Positions 50,406-62,309 of a stretch of DNA of 64,000 nt are shown here, piece after piece. The stretch's first letter is position 1; each line of letters opens with the position of its first letter. Made by a program: the position numbers and the translations under genes. The notes below the pieces were generated by a model. It ran no database searches. It was not told the origin of the DNA and saw only the letters and a program-made list of their open reading frames with translations. The DNA comes from Arenimonas donghaensis DSM 18148 = HO3-R19 (lineage in GTDB: Bacteria; Pseudomonadota; Gammaproteobacteria; Xanthomonadales; Xanthomonadaceae). Where the stretch lies: positions 124,001 through 188,000 of the forward strand of contig NZ_AVCJ01000012.1 of NCBI RefSeq assembly GCF_000743535.1. Direction: 5' to 3'.

Positions 50406-50673
50406 GCGGATGTCCCCCTGTGGGATGCGGTGCGCTTGAAAGTGGCGCGTCCGCTGCGCCGCATGCCGTCCTGGGTGGTCCGGTGGCAATCGTGGCCCCG
50501 GCTCCATGAATCCTTGTGAAACCGAGACTAGAGCCTAAACGCCCTCCTGTCTCTAGGTGATTTCCCCCAGGCCGGCTGGGGGGTCTTCCCGATTTCCGGG
50601 CGTCGCCGGGCGGTGGAGGCTGTTCCCACCTTGCCGCGTCCGGCTTGGACGCACCCTTTCCCGGAGAACCGCC

Positions 50674-53175
50674 ATGACTTCCCGTTCGTCCCGCAAGATC
50701 CGCGTGTCCGCCCTCGCCATCGGCCTGCTCGCCAGCGGCGTGGCCCTGGCCGACGCCCACCTGGACCCGCAGCTGGTGAACAAGCTCGCCAGCGCGCTGC
50801 CCACCGACGAGCTGCAGGTCGTCGTCACCTACCAGCAGTCCGGCCCGGTGACCGCGGCACAGGTCCAGGCCCTGAAGGCCCTGGGCATCGAGAAGGGCGT
50901 GACCATGCACACGCTGCCGATCGCCGGCGCCCTGGCCACCCCGGCTGAAATCGAGGCGCTGCGCCAGCGCGACGACGTCGTGTCGATCTACCACAACGCG
51001 CCGCTGCGCTTCTTCAACAAGGAACAGCGCGAGATCTCCGGTGCCGCCCGTGTCGTGCAGAACCCCAACGACTTCGGCAAGGCCATTCCCTACAGCGGCC
51101 GCGGCGTCACCGTGATGGTGAACGATTCGGGCATCGACGCCACCCACGAAGACATCAAGCTCGGCGAGAACGTCGTCGAAAACGTGCTCGCGCCGCAGAA
51201 CATCCTGGCCGAGCTCGCCGCCATCGCCGCGCCGGGCATCGTGCCGATGACCTACCTGGAAGGCCAGCCCAACACCGACCTTGGCTCCGGCCACGGAACC
51301 CATTGCGCCGGCACCATCGGCGGCACCGGTGAGCGCTCGAATGGCCTGTACCGCGGCGTCGCGCCCGGTGCGGACATGATCGGCTACGGCTCGGGCGGCG
51401 TGCTGCTGATCCTCGACGCCGTCGGTGGCCTCGACTACGCGGCCACGCACCAGTTCACCTTCGATGCACCGGTTCGCGTGACCAGCAACTCCTGGGGCAG
51501 CTCGGGCAAGTTCGATCCGCTCAACCCGGTCAATGTCTCGACCTATGAACTCTACAAGCGCGGCATCGTCAGCGTGTTCGCCGCCGGCAACGACGGCCCC
51601 GGCGAGGACACCCACAATCCCTACGCGCAGGCGCCCTGGGTGGTGTCGGTCGGCGCCGGCGAAAAGGACGGCGTGCTGACCTCCTTCTCCTCGCGCGGCA
51701 AGCGCGGCGAATCCGGCACGTTCACCATGCCCGACGGCAAGCAGTGGACCTACTTCAACGAGCCGACGGTGGTCGCCACCGGCGTGGACATCGTGTCCAC
51801 CCGCGCGCTGACCGGCGCGCTGCCGCCGCTGGCCGCCGAGCAGGACGCCGCCAACCTCACGCCCGCGCACCTGCCGTTCTATACGCACATGAGTGGCACG
51901 TCGATGGCGACCCCGCACGTGTCGGGCGTGATCGCGCTGATGCTTGAAGCCAACCCCGACCTGACGCCGGCGCAGATCAAGGCGATCCTGGAAGAAACCG
52001 CCACCAACATGACCGGGCGACTGCCCTGGGAGGCCGGTGCCGGCCACCTGAACGCGTATGCCGCGGTCGCCATGGCGCAGGGCCTGCGCGACGATTACGG
52101 TCGCACCGTCAACCTGCTGCGCGAATTCAACGCCAATGCGCTGCTGGCCCCGGGCGGTGATCCGCTGCCGTTCGAGATCTTCTTCTCGCCGGTGGGCGAG
52201 GTCGAAAGCCAGTCCTTCGAAGTCGGCGCCGACGTCGCCTGGGTCGCGGCCCGTGCGCAGGTCGATGCCAACACCATCGCGGTGGTGCTGACCGACCCGG
52301 ACGGCAATCGCTACGGTTCCTCGATCACCCTGCCGGTGCTGGGCGACACGGCCGTGACCGGCGCGCCGGGCAAGCCGGGCACCTGGACGGTGACGGTGCG
52401 CGGCATCGGTTCGGTGTCTGGCGTCGCGCTGGATCCGGCGTCCGTCACCAACGGCTACGCCGCGCCGGGCAACATCGCCGGTGAGATCAGCTTCCTCAAG
52501 AGCGCCGGCTTCACCGGCATGGACGATGTCGGCAACCATCCGGCCCGCCAGGCGATCGAATTCGCAGTGGCCAACCGCCTGGTGGATGGTTATTCGGACC
52601 GCAAGTTCCGTCCCGACCAGGTCCTGCGTCGCAGTGAGCTGGCCCAGTACCTGGGCATGGGCGCGAGCATCCGCCAGTCCCTGCCGCTCGATGGCAGCAG
52701 GAGCTTCAGCGACCTGTCGGTGTCCTCGCCGGCTTATGCCTACGCCGAGGCCGCCGTCGCCAAGGGCGCGTCGCTGCGTGACCTGACCTGGAACCAGGAC
52801 GGCGTGATGCGCCTGGTCAACGGCGGCTTCAAGCCCAGCAGCAGCGTCAACCGGACCGACCTGGCCTATGCGCTGGTCCAGGCCCAGGGCCTGCAGGCCG
52901 AAGCCCGTGCCTTCGACGGCGAACTGACCGCCTTCTTCAACGGCCAGCGGGTGCCGGTCCGGGACGCCAGCCAGGTGCCCGCTGACCTGCGTGGCTACGC
53001 CCAGCTGGCGCTCGACACCGGCGTGCTCAATGCCCGCTTTGGCATCGAGCAGGGTCCCTTCGACCTGCAGCCCAAGGTGGTGGCCTACTTCGATCCGGGC
53101 CAGTCGGTCACCCGTGCCGCCTATGCGGTCGCGGCCGGCCGGTTCATGACGCAGTTCCAGACTGCCGAAGACTGA
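50674..53175 (+). CDS. Secreted subtilisin-like (S8) protease with SLH-like C-terminal region
   Basis: An 833-residue exported serine protease. It has a signal peptide (to about residue 27, GVALADA), an inhibitor_I9-like propeptide (about 28-115), and a catalytic domain. The triad is Asp151 (NDSGIDATHED), His207 (GHGTHCAGT) and Ser410 (SGTSMATPHVSG). A beta domain is followed from about residue 617 by S-layer-homology-like repeats (AIEFAVANRLVDGYSDRKF; ELAQYLGMG). SLH modules are unusual on a Gram-negative protease. An intrinsic terminator follows. Confidence 0.92.
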   Translation: MTSRSSRKIRVSALAIGLLASGVALADAHLDPQLVNKLASALPTDELQVVVTYQQSGPVTAAQVQALKALGIEKGVTMHTLPIAGALATPAEIEALRQRDDVVSIYHNAPLRFFNKEQREISGAARVVQNPNDFGKAIPYSGRGVTVMVNDSGIDATHEDIKLGENVVENVLAPQNILAELAAIAAPGIVPMTYLEGQPNTDLGSGHGTHCAGTIGGTGERSNGLYRGVAPGADMIGYGSGGVLLILDAVGGLDYAATHQFTFDAPVRVTSNSWGSSGKFDPLNPVNVSTYELYKRGIVSVFAAGNDGPGEDTHNPYAQAPWVVSVGAGEKDGVLTSFSSRGKRGESGTFTMPDGKQWTYFNEPTVVATGVDIVSTRALTGALPPLAAEQDAANLTPAHLPFYTHMSGTSMATPHVSGVIALMLEANPDLTPAQIKAILEETATNMTGRLPWEAGAGHLNAYAAVAMAQGLRDDYGRTVNLLREFNANALLAPGGDPLPFEIFFSPVGEVESQSFEVGADVAWVAARAQVDANTIAVVLTDPDGNRYGSSITLPVLGDTAVTGAPGKPGTWTVTVRGIGSVSGVALDPASVTNGYAAPGNIAGEISFLKSAGFTGMDDVGNHPARQAIEFAVANRLVDGYSDRKFRPDQVLRRSELAQYLGMGASIRQSLPLDGSRSFSDLSVSSPAYAYAEAAVAKGASLRDLTWNQDGVMRLVNGGFKPSSSVNRTDLAYALVQAQGLQAEARAFDGELTAFFNGQRVPVRDASQVPADLRGYAQLALDTGVLNARFGIEQGPFDLQPKVVAYFDPGQSVTRAAYAVAAGRFMTQFQTAED

Positions 53176-55573: not shown

Positions 55574-55618
55574 TGGTGGCCGGGGAGGGAATCGAAACCC
55601 CGACACGGGGATTTTCAA
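55574..55618 (-). repeat. attachment site A: 3' end of tRNA-Phe
   Basis: A 45-bp copy of the 3' part of a tRNA-Phe(GAA) gene in minus orientation: TTGAAAATCCCCGTG (anticodon arm), then the T arm and CGGCCACCA. It differs at one T-arm base from the copy at 59256. The 5' half of a tRNA is absent, so this is a fragment left by integration. Confidence 0.85.
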
Positions 55619-55741
55619 GCCGGCTGGAAGTCTAATATAAACAGCCACGTACGGCGCTTGCCTGCCACAGAAGTGGCAATTGAGCGAATATCCAGTAGGC
55701 CACAATCTGGCGGGGCTTCAAGCGAATCATGGAGGATCTGG

Positions 55742-57127
55742 ATGACTAGCGCGTCTCCCAATTTTGGGATGTTGGATCGGGGGCATGTTCTGGCAGCCAT
55801 CCAAGCGGTTGATCAAGGTCAGCCGAATAACTTTGCCGAGTCGACGAAGTTCGATCTCATATACCTTGGCCGGCGGTATCCCCCCAAACGAATTGCCGGT
55901 ATGGCGTTGCAGCTGATGACAGGTCAGCCATACGGCCCCAAAGCCTTCAAAGGTGGGGTCGACACAGCGTGCTTTGGTGCCCTTCGGCGCTGCGGTTTCA
56001 CGCTAATCGAAAAGCTTAGAGAGCCGAGTGGCCGCTCGCTCCGCGACACCATCGGCGAAGTGCTTGAACTTCAGAAATCGTACCAATCGACAAACACGCC
56101 CCAGATGCAGAGGCGCGGAGCGTTGATTCGGAACGAGATTCCTAATCAACTGCGTGAAGTCATTTCAGTTTTTGAACCAACGTTCTCAAGAGCCGGGTAT
56201 GCATGTGAAATTGAAGGTTCAGATGGGGTTGGCCGAAAGAATGAATCACCCTGGGTACGAATCTATGATCCGGAGTTGTCGCCGTCAGCCACTCAAGGCT
56301 GGTACATCGTTCTTCATTTTTCTCGGCTCGGTGATTTCACTTATTTGACGATAGGGTGCGGGGCAACTGTCTTTGATCGAGGAAGTCTCGTTGATGTTCC
56401 TTCAACGGAACTGGCAAACAGGGTAGCTTGGGCTCGGGGTTTTGCCACTGAAAATGGGCTCTCAGTCGCGGACTTTGGCAGCGAACCTAAGCTGCATGGC
56501 AACCATCTTTCCGGGAAATTTGAACAGGCAATAGCGTTCGCAAAAGCCTACTCAACGGAGCATTGGGATGAGTCGGCGTTCTTGTCTGATCTAACGCGCA
56601 TTTCTACGCTGCTGGTCCGAATCTACGATGCCGAGCGCTTCGGAAAGGATCCGGTGGCGGGGACCGTCGAGGATCAGCTGGTGGCGCAGCTGGATGGTGT
56701 CCTCAATCCGGGCAGACGAAAAGGTCAGGGGCGCGGGCTCTCAAAAGCAGAGCAGACCGCTGTCGAGCATTACGCTATGGCGGTCGCCAGGCGGTCTCTT
56801 CAAGATGCTGGGTTTGACAGCATCAAGGACACCTCGGAGAAGTTTGCATACGACTACTCAGCAAAGCGAGATGGCAAGTCATGGTTTGTCGAAGTAAAGG
56901 GAACGACCTCAACAGGTTCAGATGTGATCCTTCTGACGGCCAATGAATTGAAGCTGCATAGGGAAAACATGGGCAGCACCGCCCTCATAATCGTCAGCGG
57001 CATTATCCTGGATCGGATAATTTCGCCTCCATCCGCTGCGGGTGGCGAAATCGAGATTTTCGCCCCGTGGGATCCCGAGGAATGGGAGTACGCGGCCACG
57101 GCGTTTCGGGCTACTCGAAAAAAATAG
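55742..57127 (+). CDS. Putative type IV restriction enzyme (ScoMcrA-head / MrcB-N / DUF3883)
   Basis: A 461-residue protein with three recognisable parts. Residues 5-85 resemble the ScoMcrA-type N-terminal head (FDLIYLGRRYPPKRIAGMA, RRCGFTLIE). Residues about 110-290 resemble the MrcB-like DUF3578 domain (WYIVLHFSRLGDFTYLTIGCG), linked to modified-DNA recognition. Residues about 345-445 are a DUF3883/NOV_C domain with a PD-(D/E)xK-like core: Asp371, Glu384, Lys386 in WFVEVKGTT. It has no NTPase motif, so it may cut modified DNA alone. An ideal GGAGG lies 6 bases before the ATG. Codon use is AT-richer than the core. Confidence 0.75.
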   Translation: MTSASPNFGMLDRGHVLAAIQAVDQGQPNNFAESTKFDLIYLGRRYPPKRIAGMALQLMTGQPYGPKAFKGGVDTACFGALRRCGFTLIEKLREPSGRSLRDTIGEVLELQKSYQSTNTPQMQRRGALIRNEIPNQLREVISVFEPTFSRAGYACEIEGSDGVGRKNESPWVRIYDPELSPSATQGWYIVLHFSRLGDFTYLTIGCGATVFDRGSLVDVPSTELANRVAWARGFATENGLSVADFGSEPKLHGNHLSGKFEQAIAFAKAYSTEHWDESAFLSDLTRISTLLVRIYDAERFGKDPVAGTVEDQLVAQLDGVLNPGRRKGQGRGLSKAEQTAVEHYAMAVARRSLQDAGFDSIKDTSEKFAYDYSAKRDGKSWFVEVKGTTSTGSDVILLTANELKLHRENMGSTALIIVSGIILDRIISPPSAAGGEIEIFAPWDPEEWEYAATAFRATRKK

Positions 57128-57274
57128 GGGGTCGAGGCTCTATAGCCAGGCAACATCTCTAGGCCGAATTTGGCGGCGGGGGCATTGAGATTGTCGGTAG
57201 GGGAGTCTGTGTTCGGACGCACCTTTCGTCGGATGTCTTCTTGGTTTGGTTGGAGTCAGTTGGGGGTGGGTCAG

Positions 57275-58009
57275 ATGGATCTTATTTCAGCGTTCAAGAG
57301 TGAATTGTTCCGCCCGTTGGCTACCTTGGTAGCGCCAGGCCTCTTTGCTATCGCCCCAGCGCTAATGCTTATCGCGCAGCAGCACGAAGAAGTTGGTGCA
57401 TTCTTAGACTCGAATCCCTTTGGATTCGCGGGGTTGCTGCTTGCTGTCGCTACAGCAGCCGGCATGATTTTGGAGAGTGTAGGCGCCCGAATCGAGGCAG
57501 GGATTGACCAGTGTCTCGCGGAACGATGCTATCCGCGCTTTTGGGATATTTGGGGAAGTTACCTTCAATTGAAGACTGATTCCGAAGTTATTGGGCAGCG
57601 ATACGCACGAACGGTGATTACTCGACTCAAGTTCTCACTCTCGTTTGCGCCGTCGCTGATCCTGTTCGCAGTAACACTTCTTCTCGTCAACACGAAGTTA
57701 AAGGTGCTTACATTGGGCTCAGCCGTTTGCGTAGCAACGATTTGTTTTGCTCTGGCCGGGTTCTTGCTTCTAGAGGCTGTCAAAATGTGCGACACCCTGA
57801 ACTACACGCGATGCAGAGTTCTTGCGGCGCATGACGTTGAATGCACAAATCCTGAGCATGATTTGCCGGCTGCGAAGGCATTTGTCTGCTACGTCTTATT
57901 TCATCTTCTTGGTTTCCGATCCAAGCGAATTACTGGGCTGCTGAAATCGCACAAGCTTCTAGGTCCTCTGCCTGACCCGAAATTGGCGAAAGCAGAGAAC
58001 GAAGAATGA
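57275..58009 (+). CDS. Multi-pass membrane hypothetical protein in mobile segment
   Basis: A 244-residue protein not recognised. It has about four membrane segments (LVAPGLFAIAPALMLIA; GFAGLLLAVATAAGMIL; LSFAPSLILFAVTLLLV; LGSAVCVATICFALAGFLLL) and a hydrophilic Cys-containing tail. The start is uncertain: the ATG at 57275 follows a G-rich run, and in-frame starts exist upstream. It lies 147 bases after the restriction-like gene on the same strand and is AT-rich like it. It could be an effector or accessory of that defence gene, or an unrelated passenger. Confidence 0.6.
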   Translation: MDLISAFKSELFRPLATLVAPGLFAIAPALMLIAQQHEEVGAFLDSNPFGFAGLLLAVATAAGMILESVGARIEAGIDQCLAERCYPRFWDIWGSYLQLKTDSEVIGQRYARTVITRLKFSLSFAPSLILFAVTLLLVNTKLKVLTLGSAVCVATICFALAGFLLLEAVKMCDTLNYTRCRVLAAHDVECTNPEHDLPAAKAFVCYVLFHLLGFRSKRITGLLKSHKLLGPLPDPKLAKAENEE

Positions 58010-58198
58010 GTCAGGATAAGTTTTTCGCCCTAAACGTCTCGTTTGATTGCCCCGACCCAGCTTGCCACGCGCTATCGGCCGACATGGAAATTCGGATGGC
58101 TTCCGGGGCATCGCCTGCGTGGCCGGCCAATATTGCTTTGTCTAGGCAATTCCCGCTGTGCCGCTGCGGTTCCGCCGGCCGGTCTAGAATTAGTGGGG

Positions 58199-58411
58199 TC
58201 AGATTGTCACGACAACGCGGTCGCCGAGAGCTTCTTCCAGCTCCTCAAGCGGGAGCGGATCCGGCGGAAGATCTGCCTGATCCGGGCCGATGCCCGGAGC
58301 GATCTGTTCGACTAGATTGAGATGCTCTACAACCCCCGCCGCCGCCACGGCTCCAAGGGAGGCTTGTCTCCGGTAGAGTTTGAAAGGCGGTCTGGACATT
58401 CAGGCCGGTAG
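58199..58411 (+). pseudogene. IS3-family transposase C-terminal remnant
   Basis: Translation gives DCHDNAVAESFFQLLKRERI, a stop codon (TAG at 58313), then IEMLYNPRRRHGSKGGLSPV and EFERRSGHSGR. This is the end of an IS3-type DDE transposase (the rve domain, including the catalytic Glu region), with the rest missing and a nonsense codon where the family usually has Tyr (FDYIEM). TGGGGTCAGA immediately precedes it (58194-58203). The gap from 58010 to 58477 contains nothing else I can support. Confidence 0.85.
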
Positions 58412-58477
58412 GTGTCTATGAAACCCGGAGCGATTCAATGAGGGCGAAGGCACCCAAAGTGTTTAGTCGGGCAGGCC

Positions 58478-59095
58478 TTAGTCGGGCAGGCCTTTAGGGA
58501 GCGGCTCAATTTCGGACCTCGGTATTCCGGCTGGGAAATGCTCCCTCATCGCCAAGCGCGCCTCACGGGCGTGCCGCATAAGCTGAGCCAGAGTAGCCGC
58601 AACAGCGTTGCCTGCACTTACCGTGCCCTCATCCAGCAATTTGGGTGGCGGGGAATTACGAGCGCCGATTAGCAACCCAAGGGTGTGAAGTAGGCTTGAG
58701 CCTGCGGCCGGTGGGAATAGTGAGAATTCTGATGCGAATCGCTCCATCAAGTCGAAGCCCTTTGTGGGGATATTGGTGAGGGCCAATCGGATGTGATCCG
58801 GCACGCCTGTAGCAAGGGCCTTGTTTATGGCGTCCCAAGCAAAATGAGTTTGACCAAAAATCATGTACAGCTCGCGGTCTAATGCGAGCGCAAGGATTCC
58901 TCGCTGAGCGGTCTCTCGCTCGATCTCTACTTGCCTCTCTGAGTCTCTCAATTCCCGCGCCAGATTCTCGGCTCTGGCCGAAGACTGAAGAGCGACGATT
59001 ACCGCCCAAAACGTAACGCCTGCCGCCAACATGCCAACCCCTACGTTGGCCCAGTCGCTCGCGGTTCCCCACTCGATAGCTTGCGGACAGAACAT
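58478..59095 (-). CDS. Membrane-anchored hypothetical protein
   Basis: A 205-residue protein not recognised. An N-terminal membrane segment (ANVGVGMLAAGVTFWAVIVAL) is followed by a coiled coil (ARELRDSERQVEIERETAQRG) and a helical cytoplasmic part. The ATG at 59095 was chosen because AGGAG lies 8 bases upstream; an ATG at 59113 is also in frame. Its last codons plus stop are duplicated in tandem (15 bp twice). It is the last gene of the segment between the two tRNA-Phe copies. Confidence 0.6.
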   Translation of the reverse strand: MFCPQAIEWGTASDWANVGVGMLAAGVTFWAVIVALQSSARAENLARELRDSERQVEIERETAQRGILALALDRELYMIFGQTHFAWDAINKALATGVPDHIRLALTNIPTKGFDLMERFASEFSLFPPAAGSSLLHTLGLLIGARNSPPPKLLDEGTVSAGNAVAATLAQLMRHAREARLAMREHFPAGIPRSEIEPLPKGLPD

Positions 59096-59202
59096 TTCTC
59101 GCTCTCCTGGCATCCCCGCCTCATAAGACAGGAACGGGCCATCCGGCCGCAAGTCATGTCAAACGCATGCCAAGGACTCTGGGGGGAGTTGGGCGAGACC
59201 CT

Positions 59203-59251
59203 AAAACGAATCGCCCCGCAGGGCTGAGAGCCAAGCGGGGCGCGGGATTCG
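59203..59251 (-). terminator. Minus-strand terminator behind att site B
   Basis: On the minus strand CGAATC and GCCCCGC (59251-59235, GCGG bulge) pair with GCGGGGC and GATTCG (59219-59207), then TTTT (59206-59203). It lies 5 bases beyond the tRNA 3' end copy and could end a tRNA-Phe transcript. Confidence 0.75.
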
Positions 59252-59255
59252 TGGA

Positions 59256-59300
59256 TGGTGGCCGGGGAGGGAATCGAACCCCCGACACGGGGATTTTCAA
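59256..59300 (-). repeat. attachment site B: 3' end of tRNA-Phe
   Basis: A second 45-bp copy of the 3' part of tRNA-Phe(GAA), minus orientation, with the correct T-arm (TCGGGGGTTCGATTCCCTCC). Four further tRNA-like bases (TCCC) follow before the match ends. The integrase gene begins 145 bases to the right. Confidence 0.85.
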
Positions 59301-59402
59301 TCCCTTTTCTAAACGACCCGAGCCCGCCCCGCCCCTGGTAAATGCTCGTGATTACCACTAGAGGGCTAATTTATAGCGAATTGCACCGTCCCGGGGTATC
59401 CC

Positions 59403-59444: not shown

Positions 59445-60797
59445 ATGGGCATTACCGTTCGGGGGCTGGAATCGCTGAAGCCGGGGGAGTGGCTCACTGA
59501 GTCCGGGAACCGCAATGTTGGCGCCCTGCGCGCCAAGGGTGGCCCCAACGGCGCGCGCTTCTACTTCCGCTATCGGGACTCCGCTGGCCGGTATGACGAT
59601 CTCCCGCTCGGTGCGTTTGACGCCAGGGGCCGCGATGGCCTGACCCTGACCGAGGCGAAGACCCGGGCCGGCGAGTTGAGCCGGCGCTACCTGGGCGGCG
59701 AGACCGACCTACGCCTGGCGCTGGAAACCGAACGCCGCGAGACCGAGCTGGCGCTCGAGGCCAAGGCTCGCGCCCACGAGGCAGCCAAGGCCAAACGGGC
59801 CGCCACGCTGGGAGCCCTTCTGACGGCATACGTCGCCCAGCTCGAGCGAGACGGAAAGGCCAGCGCCAAGGCGGTGGCGCGCGCTGTGACGCGCCATGTG
59901 GCCGAACCGTGGCCGAGCCTATGGGAGAAGGCGGCCGAGGAAGTGACCATTGAGGACCTTGTGGCGGTGCTGGCCCGCGTCGTGGACGGCGGGAAGCTGA
60001 CCGAGGCCCGCAAGCTCCGGGCCTACCTGTCGGCGGCGTATCAGGCCGCGATCCGGGCCCGACAGGATGCGCGAGGGTTGGAGGCGCTGCGAAAGCTGCG
60101 AATCACGCGGAACCCTGCCCGGGACCTCGCCACCGTCGACGGAGGCAGCAAGGCCCGCGACCGCGCGCTGAGCGTGGCCGAGCTGCAGGCCTACTGGCGC
60201 CGTATCCGAGCGCTCCCCTGCCGCCCGGCAGGGGCTCTTCTGCGGTTCCATCTCCTGACGGGCGCACAGCGAGTCGAGCAGCTTTCACGGCTGACCAAGG
60301 ACGACTTAGATCGGGACGCGGACGCGGTCTGCCTGCGGGATGCGAAGGGCCGGCGCAAGGTGCCGCGGCTACATCTGGTGCCCTTGCTGCCCGAAGCCTG
60401 GGACGCACTGCAGGCCATGGCCCCGGGCCGGGTGGGGCCGTTCCTTTTCTCCGTGACAGCCGGCGAGACCGGCGCGGCCTATTCCAGCGTCCTCCTGCGC
60501 CTGCGCGAGGTGGTGGCCGCCATGGAGAAGGCCGGCGAGCTGGAGCGCGGCCCGTTCACCGTGGGCGACCTGCGCCGCACGGTGGAGACCCGGTTGGCTG
60601 CGGTCGGTGTCTCGACCGAGACGCGCGCGCAGCTCCAATCCCACGGTCTCGGCGGTGTCCAGGCACGGCACTACGATCGACACGACTACCTGGAGGACAA
60701 GCGGGCGGCCCTCGTGACGCTGCTTGGCCTCTGTGAGGCAACTCCGGCCACGGTGACTCCGATTACAGGCCGCAAGATACCCGCTAGGCGCCGGTGA
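59445..60797 (+). CDS. Tyrosine recombinase (integrase)
   Basis: A 450-residue phage-type integrase. An N-terminal arm-binding-like domain (RFYFRYRDSAGRYDDLPLG) is followed by a SAM-like core-binding domain and a catalytic domain. The first catalytic Arg is Arg276 (TGAQRVEQLSRL), then DLRRTVETRLA near residue 375, SHGLGG, and the nucleophile Tyr in ARHYDRHDY. It sits next to tRNA-Phe site B, facing into the second element, as expected for an integrase that uses this tRNA. Confidence 0.93.
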   Translation: MGITVRGLESLKPGEWLTESGNRNVGALRAKGGPNGARFYFRYRDSAGRYDDLPLGAFDARGRDGLTLTEAKTRAGELSRRYLGGETDLRLALETERRETELALEAKARAHEAAKAKRAATLGALLTAYVAQLERDGKASAKAVARAVTRHVAEPWPSLWEKAAEEVTIEDLVAVLARVVDGGKLTEARKLRAYLSAAYQAAIRARQDARGLEALRKLRITRNPARDLATVDGGSKARDRALSVAELQAYWRRIRALPCRPAGALLRFHLLTGAQRVEQLSRLTKDDLDRDADAVCLRDAKGRRKVPRLHLVPLLPEAWDALQAMAPGRVGPFLFSVTAGETGAAYSSVLLRLREVVAAMEKAGELERGPFTVGDLRRTVETRLAAVGVSTETRAQLQSHGLGGVQARHYDRHDYLEDKRAALVTLLGLCEATPATVTPITGRKIPARRR

Positions 60798-61665: not shown

Positions 61666-61896
61666 ATGACCCGCAGTGCAGGGGCAGCCCTACTGGGCAG
61701 TCGAGTTCTTGAGCGTCTTCCGAGCGTGAGGTCCCGCACGGGGCTCAGTCGCTCGGAGATCTACCGCAGGATCCAGGTTGGAATGTTCCCGGCGCCGGTG
61801 AAGCTGGGCGAGCGGGCCAGCGCGTGGGACTCCGGAGAGATCGACAACTGGATCGCCGGACGGCTGGCGGAGCGCGATGCGAGGGCCGGCACATGA
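61666..61896 (+). CDS. AlpA-like regulator/excisionase
   Basis: A 76-residue protein of the AlpA/Xis-like helix-turn-helix type: LPSVRSRTGLSRSEIYRRIQ, then GMFPAPVKLGERASAWDSGEIDNWIAGRLA. AlpA regulators activate or excise P4-like elements near their integrase. It overlaps the CHC2 gene by 4 bases (ATGA), so it opens the replication operon. Confidence 0.88.
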   Translation: MTRSAGAALLGSRVLERLPSVRSRTGLSRSEIYRRIQVGMFPAPVKLGERASAWDSGEIDNWIAGRLAERDARAGT

Positions 61897-62309
61897 CGGC
61901 CCCCAAAAAGGCGAGAAGCCGCGGGGACGGCCGCAGCTTCTCGGGTGCAAATGGGGCAAGGGGTACGCTCCACGCAGAGTCCGAGGCTACCAACTCCAGC
62001 GGCAAGCGCAAGGGCTGGCAGGACGTGCGGCTCCCGCGGAACTGGCGGGAGCGTCTGCCGTTGCCGGTGGCGTATTACCCGACCCGACTTGAGCTGCTGA
62101 CGCGCGCTAATCCGTCGGGTTGGGCGCAGGCACGCTGTCCGTTCCACGAGGACGGCACGGCCAGCCTCTCCGTGCAGATGAACGACCAGCGCGGCGGCTG
62201 GCGCTGCTTTGCCGGATGCGGGGCGGGAGACCTGGTCGCTTTTCACATGCGCGCCACGGGCAAAGGCTTCCGCGATGCGGTGCTCGACCTTGTAAGGGGT
62301 GGAGCATGA
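61893..62309 (+). CDS. CHC2 zinc-finger primase-like protein
   Basis: A 138-residue protein with a CHC2-type zinc ribbon: CPFHEDGTASLSV and WRCFAGCGAGDLVAF, as in DnaG-type primases. The N-terminal 60 residues are basic and probably unstructured. It lacks the catalytic primase domain; the next gene supplies a Toprim domain, so together they could form a split primase. Coupled to both neighbours by 4-base overlaps. Confidence 0.85.
   Translation: MTAPKKARSRGDGRSFSGANGARGTLHAESEATNSSGKRKGWQDVRLPRNWRERLPLPVAYYPTRLELLTRANPSGWAQARCPFHEDGTASLSVQMNDQRGGWRCFAGCGAGDLVAFHMRATGKGFRDAVLDLVRGGA

Follow-up and report, generated by a model that had tools for sequence, protein, structure and literature searches.

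Within a 64,000-nucleotide stretch of the Arenimonas donghaensis DSM 18148 genome (contig NZ_AVCJ01000012.1, positions 124,001 to 188,000; referred to as the window, whose coordinates are used throughout), the forward-strand gene at 55742-57127 encodes a protein that probably acts as a Type IV (modification-dependent) DNA endonuclease in a single chain and without a motor. The 461-residue chain joins an N-terminal head of the ScoMcrA type, a modified-base reader of the McrB type (MrcB_N, DUF3578) and a nuclease domain of the NOV_C family (DUF3883, PF13020). In the proposed mechanism, the MrcB_N domain would extrude a modified base from the helix and accommodate it in its own pocket, as McrB-N does, and the NOV_C domain, a predicted Mg2+-dependent PD-(D/E)xK nuclease using D371, E384 and K386, would cut the DNA nearby. 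Cleavage would probably require a dimer or the meeting of two chains, so that one bound site would be insufficient, and the head may be a flexible accessory for contacts with DNA or with a partner. Such an enzyme would be independent of NTP and could act in phage defence. In McrBC, the textbook example, base reading is coupled to a motor driven by GTP. If the proposal is correct, a recurring fusion of reader and nuclease would demonstrate that this motor can be dispensed with, and could provide compact single-protein reagents that read modified bases.

Three modules in a single reading frame

The protein is encoded by one open frame on the plus strand, which starts with the ATG at 55742 and closes with a stop codon ending at 57127. 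A Shine-Dalgarno-like GGAGG (55731-55735, plus strand) lies upstream of the start. A run of 461 codons without a stop has a probability of about 1.3e-9 when only base composition is considered; the antisense of the gene, of which only one frame was translated, contains numerous stops. Pfam assigns residues 111-286 (56072-56599) to MrcB_N (E 2.9e-16, 60.1 bits, cut-off 25) and residues 341-418 to NOV_C (E 1.9e-8, 34.7 bits, cut-off 22.1). No third family is found at E <= 1, which covers NTPase and AAA+ GTPase families as well as SRA and HNH. The three modules fill the chain, and a concealed NTPase was rejected on the Pfam scan together with the structure model. The PADLOC matches are all weak and lie in the C-terminal part, with TmtA as the best (E 6.4e-5), and NCBIfam gives nothing meaningful (best E 0.055, far under the cut-off). 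In the host genome (2.98 Mb, 51 contigs), MrcB_N and NOV_C each have this gene as their sole match at E <= 0.001.

The head (residues 11-92, 55772-56017) lies outside the Pfam result. A profile of seven heads, that of the window protein included, matches ScoMcrA (PDB 5zmm, residues 3-94) with E 1.6e-8, while the runner-up has E 1.1. After removal of the window row, the head profile scores 77.8 bits on the window protein versus 2.7 for the best of 200 shuffles, and an MrcB_N-NOV_C profile reduced in the same way scores 296.8 bits versus 3.0; both profiles remain partly dependent on the window, as their members were found by similarity to the window protein and aligned with it. The 200-shuffle controls rule out a chance frame or a chance motif. 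The open frame, the two Pfam families and the head profile bear out an earlier sequence-only reading, which had claimed three modules in one frame and the absence of an NTPase motor.

The whole-protein model, computed from alignment A4 (A5 was dropped, as MAFFT had misplaced short head fragments in it), has a mean predicted local distance difference test score (pLDDT) of 81.5 and a predicted template modelling score (pTM) of 0.53. Most of the sequence in the three modules exceeds a pLDDT of 70, and residues 307-330 and 452-455 fall under 50. A Foldseek search with this model places ScoMcrA at rank 1 (E 0.0099; the row for 5zmm spans 155 columns, with the aligned part not specified). McrB-N structures occupy ranks 2-18, 20, 22 and 24 (20 chains), and an Hjc resolvase is found at rank 19 (E 0.14). 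For the whole chain, this ranking is suggestive and not conclusive.

The nuclease domain (residues 335-451, 56744-57094) was also modelled in isolation from 17 sequences (pLDDT 83.4, pTM 0.78). Its best Foldseek matches are Hjc resolvases (E 0.010; 2wcz_B, TM-scores 0.49/0.57, root-mean-square deviation 3.6), and further matches include RPA0323 (UPF0102), the splicing endonuclease 3ajv, SPARDA chains and HincII. The predicted core runs from helix 335-355 through strands 360-363, 372-376 and 379-387 to helix 400-408 and strand 413-424. An alpha-beta-beta-beta-alpha-beta core with a D...(D/E)xK signature is thus present in the predicted fold, with E-values of 0.01 and above. Asp371 (56852-56854), a predicted metal ligand, directly precedes strand 372-376, and Glu384 and Lys386 of the Glu384-Val-Lys386 motif (56891-56899) lie within the next strand, 379-387, in what is predicted to be the canonical PD-(D/E)xK layout. 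All three residues are invariant in 17/17 aligned NOV_C domains. The sequence-only reading had named this triad and made its proposal depend on a PD-(D/E)xK core; the triad holds, and the model contains such a core, best matched by Hjc and then by HincII and others, at E-values that all exceed 0.001. In a viral library search the matches are weak (E 0.073 and above), and several of them carry resolvase, VRR-NUC or NOV_C names. DUF3883 has been termed a novel restriction endonuclease domain in a passage of PMC3710099.

The McrB-type reader and its relatives

The reader is related to McrB by profile comparison as well as by predicted fold. In hhalign, a McrB-type group (n=5, including E. coli McrB) matches ten window-family readers with probability 99.0 and E 5.6e-18. 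Six McrB residues, G40, G42, P48, W49, G62 and Y64, are invariant in 13 aligned sequences, and all six are kept in the window protein; G40 differs in two relatives outside that alignment (loci L003 and L034). According to part of PMC3874153, the flipped base is contacted by Y64 in E. coli McrB, and the alignments identify Tyr188 (56303-56305) as its equivalent, so the pocket tyrosine is retained.

One pocket position differs. The residue equivalent to McrB L68 is His192 (56315-56317) in the window protein and Leu in 23/23 other distinct MrcB_N sequences compared (16 assigned by pattern; seven, L007, L010, L017, L018, L023, L069 and L077, read from the alignment), a small sample that includes near kin (L029/L031, L032/L037). 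Two separate alignments give the same pairing of His192 with L68. By homology, His192 would be located in the base pocket, which suggests that the base read is not simply 5-methylcytosine (5mC), and the question of specificity is thereby tied to one residue. The PDB holds E. coli McrB-N entries whose titles indicate mutation at L68; no open papers on these structures were found. A broader proposal is tentative: the combination of McrB reader and resolvase-like nuclease may define a widespread family of single-protein restriction enzymes that has no name as yet, and in the window protein His192 would remodel the pocket for a modification other than 5mC, for example a phage-DNA substituent that is polar or more bulky.

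Relatives were recovered with a family alignment. While a scan of genome contigs with the single window protein gave no match, a second scan with a four-sequence alignment yielded 13 loci, 12 encoding MrcB_N-NOV_C proteins and one (L038) NOV_C only. Two pairs of loci represent the same contigs with identical sequence (L035 and L004, L036 and L012) and were counted once. There are 13 further distinct MrcB_N-NOV_C proteins (L003, L026-L037), from Actinomycetota and Pseudomonadota, which share 31-37% identity with the window protein over about 360 residues. They have the reader and the nuclease in common with it. In contrast, they have Leu at the H192 position, and a profile search over six frames of their loci found no head (best 5.9 bits); within the MrcB_N-NOV_C set, the window protein is the only member that carries one. 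The MrcB_N-NOV_C pair was found in 3/299 sampled genomes of the order, 2/398 of the phylum and 1/369 of the class, counts that are lower bounds from overlapping samples and a loose first look, with the window's genome included in each. Scans of viral contigs with alignment A1, the head alone or L011 led nowhere.

Among the open-licence PubMed Central (PMC) papers searched, none names these relatives or describes the MrcB_N-NOV_C combination, and of 14 that mention DUF3578 or DUF3883 none contains the two together; annotation in protein databases was outside this search. Within that literature, this agrees with the statement of the sequence-only reading that no mechanism has been defined for the combination.

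The island and competing explanations

The gene resides in a mobile setting, as had been proposed. Its GC content is 0.54 and that of the surrounding 3.7-kb segment 0.55, versus 0.68 for window positions 1-55000. A 48-nt direct repeat at 55574-55621 and 59256-59303, with 46/48 positions identical, corresponds to the 3' part of tRNA-Phe in minus-strand reading. The second copy agrees at all 48 positions with the intact tRNA-Phe gene, which lies beyond the window (L066:10255-10330, window-equivalent 73255-73330). Because of the repeats at 55574 and 59256 and the intact tRNA-Phe at 73255, two att-bounded segments are arranged in tandem: segment A (55574-59256, 3.7 kb), which contains the window gene, and segment B (59256-73255, 14 kb). 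Some match to the tRNA-Phe region is present in 27/27 genomes of the genus searched, including the window's, many of them to the tRNA part only. The mutY gene adjoins the region in 12 fetched loci including the window's (in L085, as its last 31 residues at a contig end), and further partial tRNA-Phe copies occur nearby on the same contig in three genomes (G1036, G262, G1043). In this genus, the tRNA-Phe next to mutY resembles a site of repeated insertion.

The description of the gene as alone in its segment stands in part: segment A has two more sizeable open reading frames (ORFs) without a Pfam family, a hydrophobic one of 244 residues from its ATG (57275-58009, plus strand) and one of 224 residues (58478-59152, minus strand). 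A two-gene system with the former was rejected, as this ORF has no match in the plasmid collection at E <= 1e-5 and partial matches in 2/199 other genomes of the order. Segment B encodes a tyrosine integrase (59445-60797, plus strand; Phage_int_M and Phage_integrase matches below the Pfam cut-offs), and AlpA (61666-61896) and a CHC2 zinc-finger ORF (61824-62309), both above the cut-off. Beyond the window, it also encodes a DUF3987 protein and, together with a specificity subunit, an N6-methylase that carries an HsdR N-terminal domain. Segment B looks like a satellite-like element. On the chromosomal side of the island, 50557-53175 encodes a subtilase (Peptidase_S8) with an SLH domain.

Several results count against an intact modification-dependent enzyme. 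In a tree of 14 proteins, in which its position is unsure, the window protein has the longest end branch (3.36 versus a median of 0.59) and is the most divergent member. Every Foldseek E-value exceeds 0.001 (best 0.0099 for the whole model and 0.010 for NOV_C), and the TM-scores are low for the whole chain. Unrelated folds appear from rank 23 (PebA) with the whole model and at rank 9 (DinG) with the isolated NOV_C model. For the whole chain, the lack of a hit below 0.001 may be expected of loosely joined modules. A sequence-only search of the PDB reaches McrB-N at E 1.3 only, and one with the single window protein returns nanobodies only (E 0.36 and above). The protein does not match the PADLOC model of the phage-defence nuclease PD-T4-1 at E <= 1. 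Finally, the departure from an otherwise constant pocket residue at His192 could mean decay.

It is possible, if unlikely, that the gene is a decayed or shifting copy, once such an enzyme and now losing function in this lineage. The long branch and the replacement of the L68 equivalent, seen in the window protein only, would fit such a history, as would the lack of an integrase in segment A among the ORFs scanned with Pfam. A candidate transposase remnant noticed by eye at 58180-58410, where short frames resemble what we take to be the end of an IS3-type transposase, would fit it too. The frame, however, is open over its full length and has a good ribosome site, the D371/E384/K386 triad and the six constant reader residues are intact, and the confidence with which the three modules are modelled also speaks for a maintained protein.

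While an active single-chain enzyme remains the preferred explanation, dependence of the nuclease on a separate partner is a further reading, to which we assign a low probability. Candidate partners exist in the host: a McrB-like GTPase (840 residues) and McrC (429 residues), the sole McrC match in the genome, are encoded side by side on another contig (C5; L068:3249-7064, minus strand), and the HsdM/HsdS-like pair, the N6-methylase and specificity subunit, is present in the neighbouring element. A protein that fuses head and MrcB_N to a McrB GTPase (L008, described below) also points in this direction. Yet the window protein comes with a nuclease domain of its own, the ORFs scanned in segment A (55574-59303) include no gene for McrB, McrC or a methylase, and the host's own McrB has no MrcB_N match.

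The neighbours of the relatives likewise argue against a partner. Except for a few weak matches of 27-34% identity, ORFs common to the loci L026-L037 (n=12) occur only within Lentzea (L028, L029, L031) and within one pair from Brevundimonas (L032/L037). One of the weak matches favours a partner: a short-chain dehydrogenase (assigned by Pfam in L028) adjoins the gene in the three Lentzea, and a relative with 29-34% identity lies 4.4 kb away in Jiangella. For nine of the 12 loci, 59 neighbour ORFs were listed and 52 scanned with Pfam (one twice); for one scan, 25 of 42 families are listed, each present in one member. The families are a mixture of housekeeping and defence-type genes, the latter comprising Thoeris ThsA in Jiangella (L026:6076-6930), HEPN (L028:5971-6588) and NYN-LOTUS (L036:5964-7280). 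ThsB and GmrSD_N are each found in 1 of 33 neighbours, and Imm11 in L035. Among the families listed, none is a constant partner, McrB, McrC or a named DNA methylase; one S-adenosyl methyltransferase (Methyltransf_19) occurs in 1 of 33 neighbours scanned. A dedicated partner gene is therefore rejected, the common ORFs being confined as described, and the gene seems to stand by itself, in some loci amid defence genes.

Type II-like restriction of unmodified DNA, with MrcB_N as a sequence reader and a methylase elsewhere that protects the host, is improbable. An archaeal survey places DUF3883 provisionally among Type IIR groups, according to a passage of PMC10609329, and the McrBC relative LlaJI reads an unmodified site; LlaJI, however, uses a B3 domain (both statements from part of PMC12707154), and the characterised MrcB_N reads modified cytosine (a passage of PMC3874153). 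The nearest methylase noticed, that of the N6-methylase/specificity pair, is about 11-12 kb (11.8 kb) from the gene in the other att-bounded element, and the absence of a named DNA methylase from the families listed around the relatives also speaks against this option. A DNA- or RNA-binding regulator or RNA-directed nuclease in place of a DNA restriction enzyme is highly improbable: RNA is the predicted target of some McrBC-derived systems (PMC11090510, in part) and some of the PD-(D/E)xK matches, such as the splicing endonuclease 3ajv, are RNA enzymes, but both the fold of McrB-N and the residues conserved in it are those of a domain that flips bases in DNA, and the best match, Hjc, acts on DNA.

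Module exchange and known restriction systems

The modules of the window protein recur in other combinations. L008 (643-3117) encodes an 824-residue head-MrcB_N-McrB GTPase protein, so the head is also found on McrB proteins; its MrcB_N is just under the Pfam cut-off (23.5 versus 25 bits), and the NCBIfam McrB model matches residues 372-814 with E 1e-157, below the model's own cut-off. L011 (1102-2133, minus strand) encodes a 343-residue MrcB_N-HNH-like nuclease, predicted to be another motor-free enzyme with a McrB reader; its Pfam HNH match is below the cut-off, and PADLOC mREase_IV matches residues 259-327 (E 2.9e-7). Head-HNH proteins are encoded in L016 and L020 (HNH just below the cut-off in L020), and DUF3427-NOV_C proteins in L005, L013 and L015. 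In tblastn, matches by the head only comprise four records of the plasmid collection (three Escherichia and one Klebsiella; three annotated as HNH endonuclease) and four Vibrio phages, while the remaining three plasmid-collection records are matched by the NOV_C region or MrcB_N alone.

Two Vibrio phages encode head-DUF3427-NOV_C proteins of 449 and 458 residues between repressor and integrase (L021:3938-5287, L022:3929-5305). For SauUSI, DUF3427 has been proposed as the reader (PMC3874153, in part), and the domain is predicted to bind modified DNA (PMC7159879, in part). The NOV_C region of L021 matches the PADLOC PD-T4-1 model (E 1.1e-22). An excerpt of PMC10952713 lists PD-T4-1 as a PD(D/E)XK nuclease of phage defence; the main text of PMC9519451 has no whole-word mention of it. 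The window protein has the C-terminal NOV_C-type nuclease in common with PD-T4-1 (Vassallo et al. 2022) and with the phage proteins, and the head with the latter, whose reader is different (DUF3427). The link to PD-T4-1 runs via the phage protein, whereas the window protein itself has no direct match. That these modules are combined in several ways, in genomes as well as in phages and plasmids, supports the view that Type IV readers and nucleases are exchanged freely.

Judged from its sequence, the window protein is not a member of the ScoMcrA group. ScoMcrA is a Type IV enzyme with SBD, SRA and HNH domains, and the similarity of sequence between the two is confined to the head; ScoMcrA is also the top fold match. 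The window protein has other reader and nuclease families, with neither SRA nor HNH, and apparently no room for an SBD: the stretches outside its modules (93-110 and 287-334) seem too short. No SBD match was found either, the longest unassigned stretch being 48 residues, in libraries for which the presence of an SBD model is unconfirmed. In the part of PMC6224610 that describes ScoMcrA, sulphur is bound by the separate SBD, and the head is without known function. The suggestion that phosphorothioate DNA might be a target is thus unsupported, and phosphorothioate reading via the head was rejected, the head not being the sulphur-binding part of ScoMcrA.

By its domain content, the window protein is not a McrBC member either, because it lacks the GTPase and McrC. 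It shares with McrBC (EcoKMcrBC) the MrcB_N/DUF3578 reader and the residues matching G40, G42, P48, W49, G62 and Y64. While McrBC combines this reader with an AAA+ GTPase and McrC, the window protein has its nuclease in the same chain, from another PD-(D/E)xK family, and His192 in place of L68.

As in Type IV enzymes, a modified-base reader is joined to a nuclease in one chain (by Pfam, Foldseek and hhalign), without a paired methyltransferase among the ORFs scanned in the segment or the families listed for the relatives. The anatomy, with reader, linker and nuclease, no motor found and an apparently solitary gene in a mobile island, is by analogy that of EVE-HNH- and SRA-HNH-like enzymes. EVE-HNH, SRA-HNH and CMoRE follow the same plan of one modified-base reader and one nuclease, as set out in parts of PMC7897488, PMC6212794 and PMC12923530. 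Their readers (EVE, SRA and the CMoRE C-terminal sensing domain) and nucleases (HNH, GIY-YIG) are unlike those of the window protein. In the window protein, the plan is represented by a McrB-type reader and a predicted resolvase-like PD-(D/E)xK nuclease.

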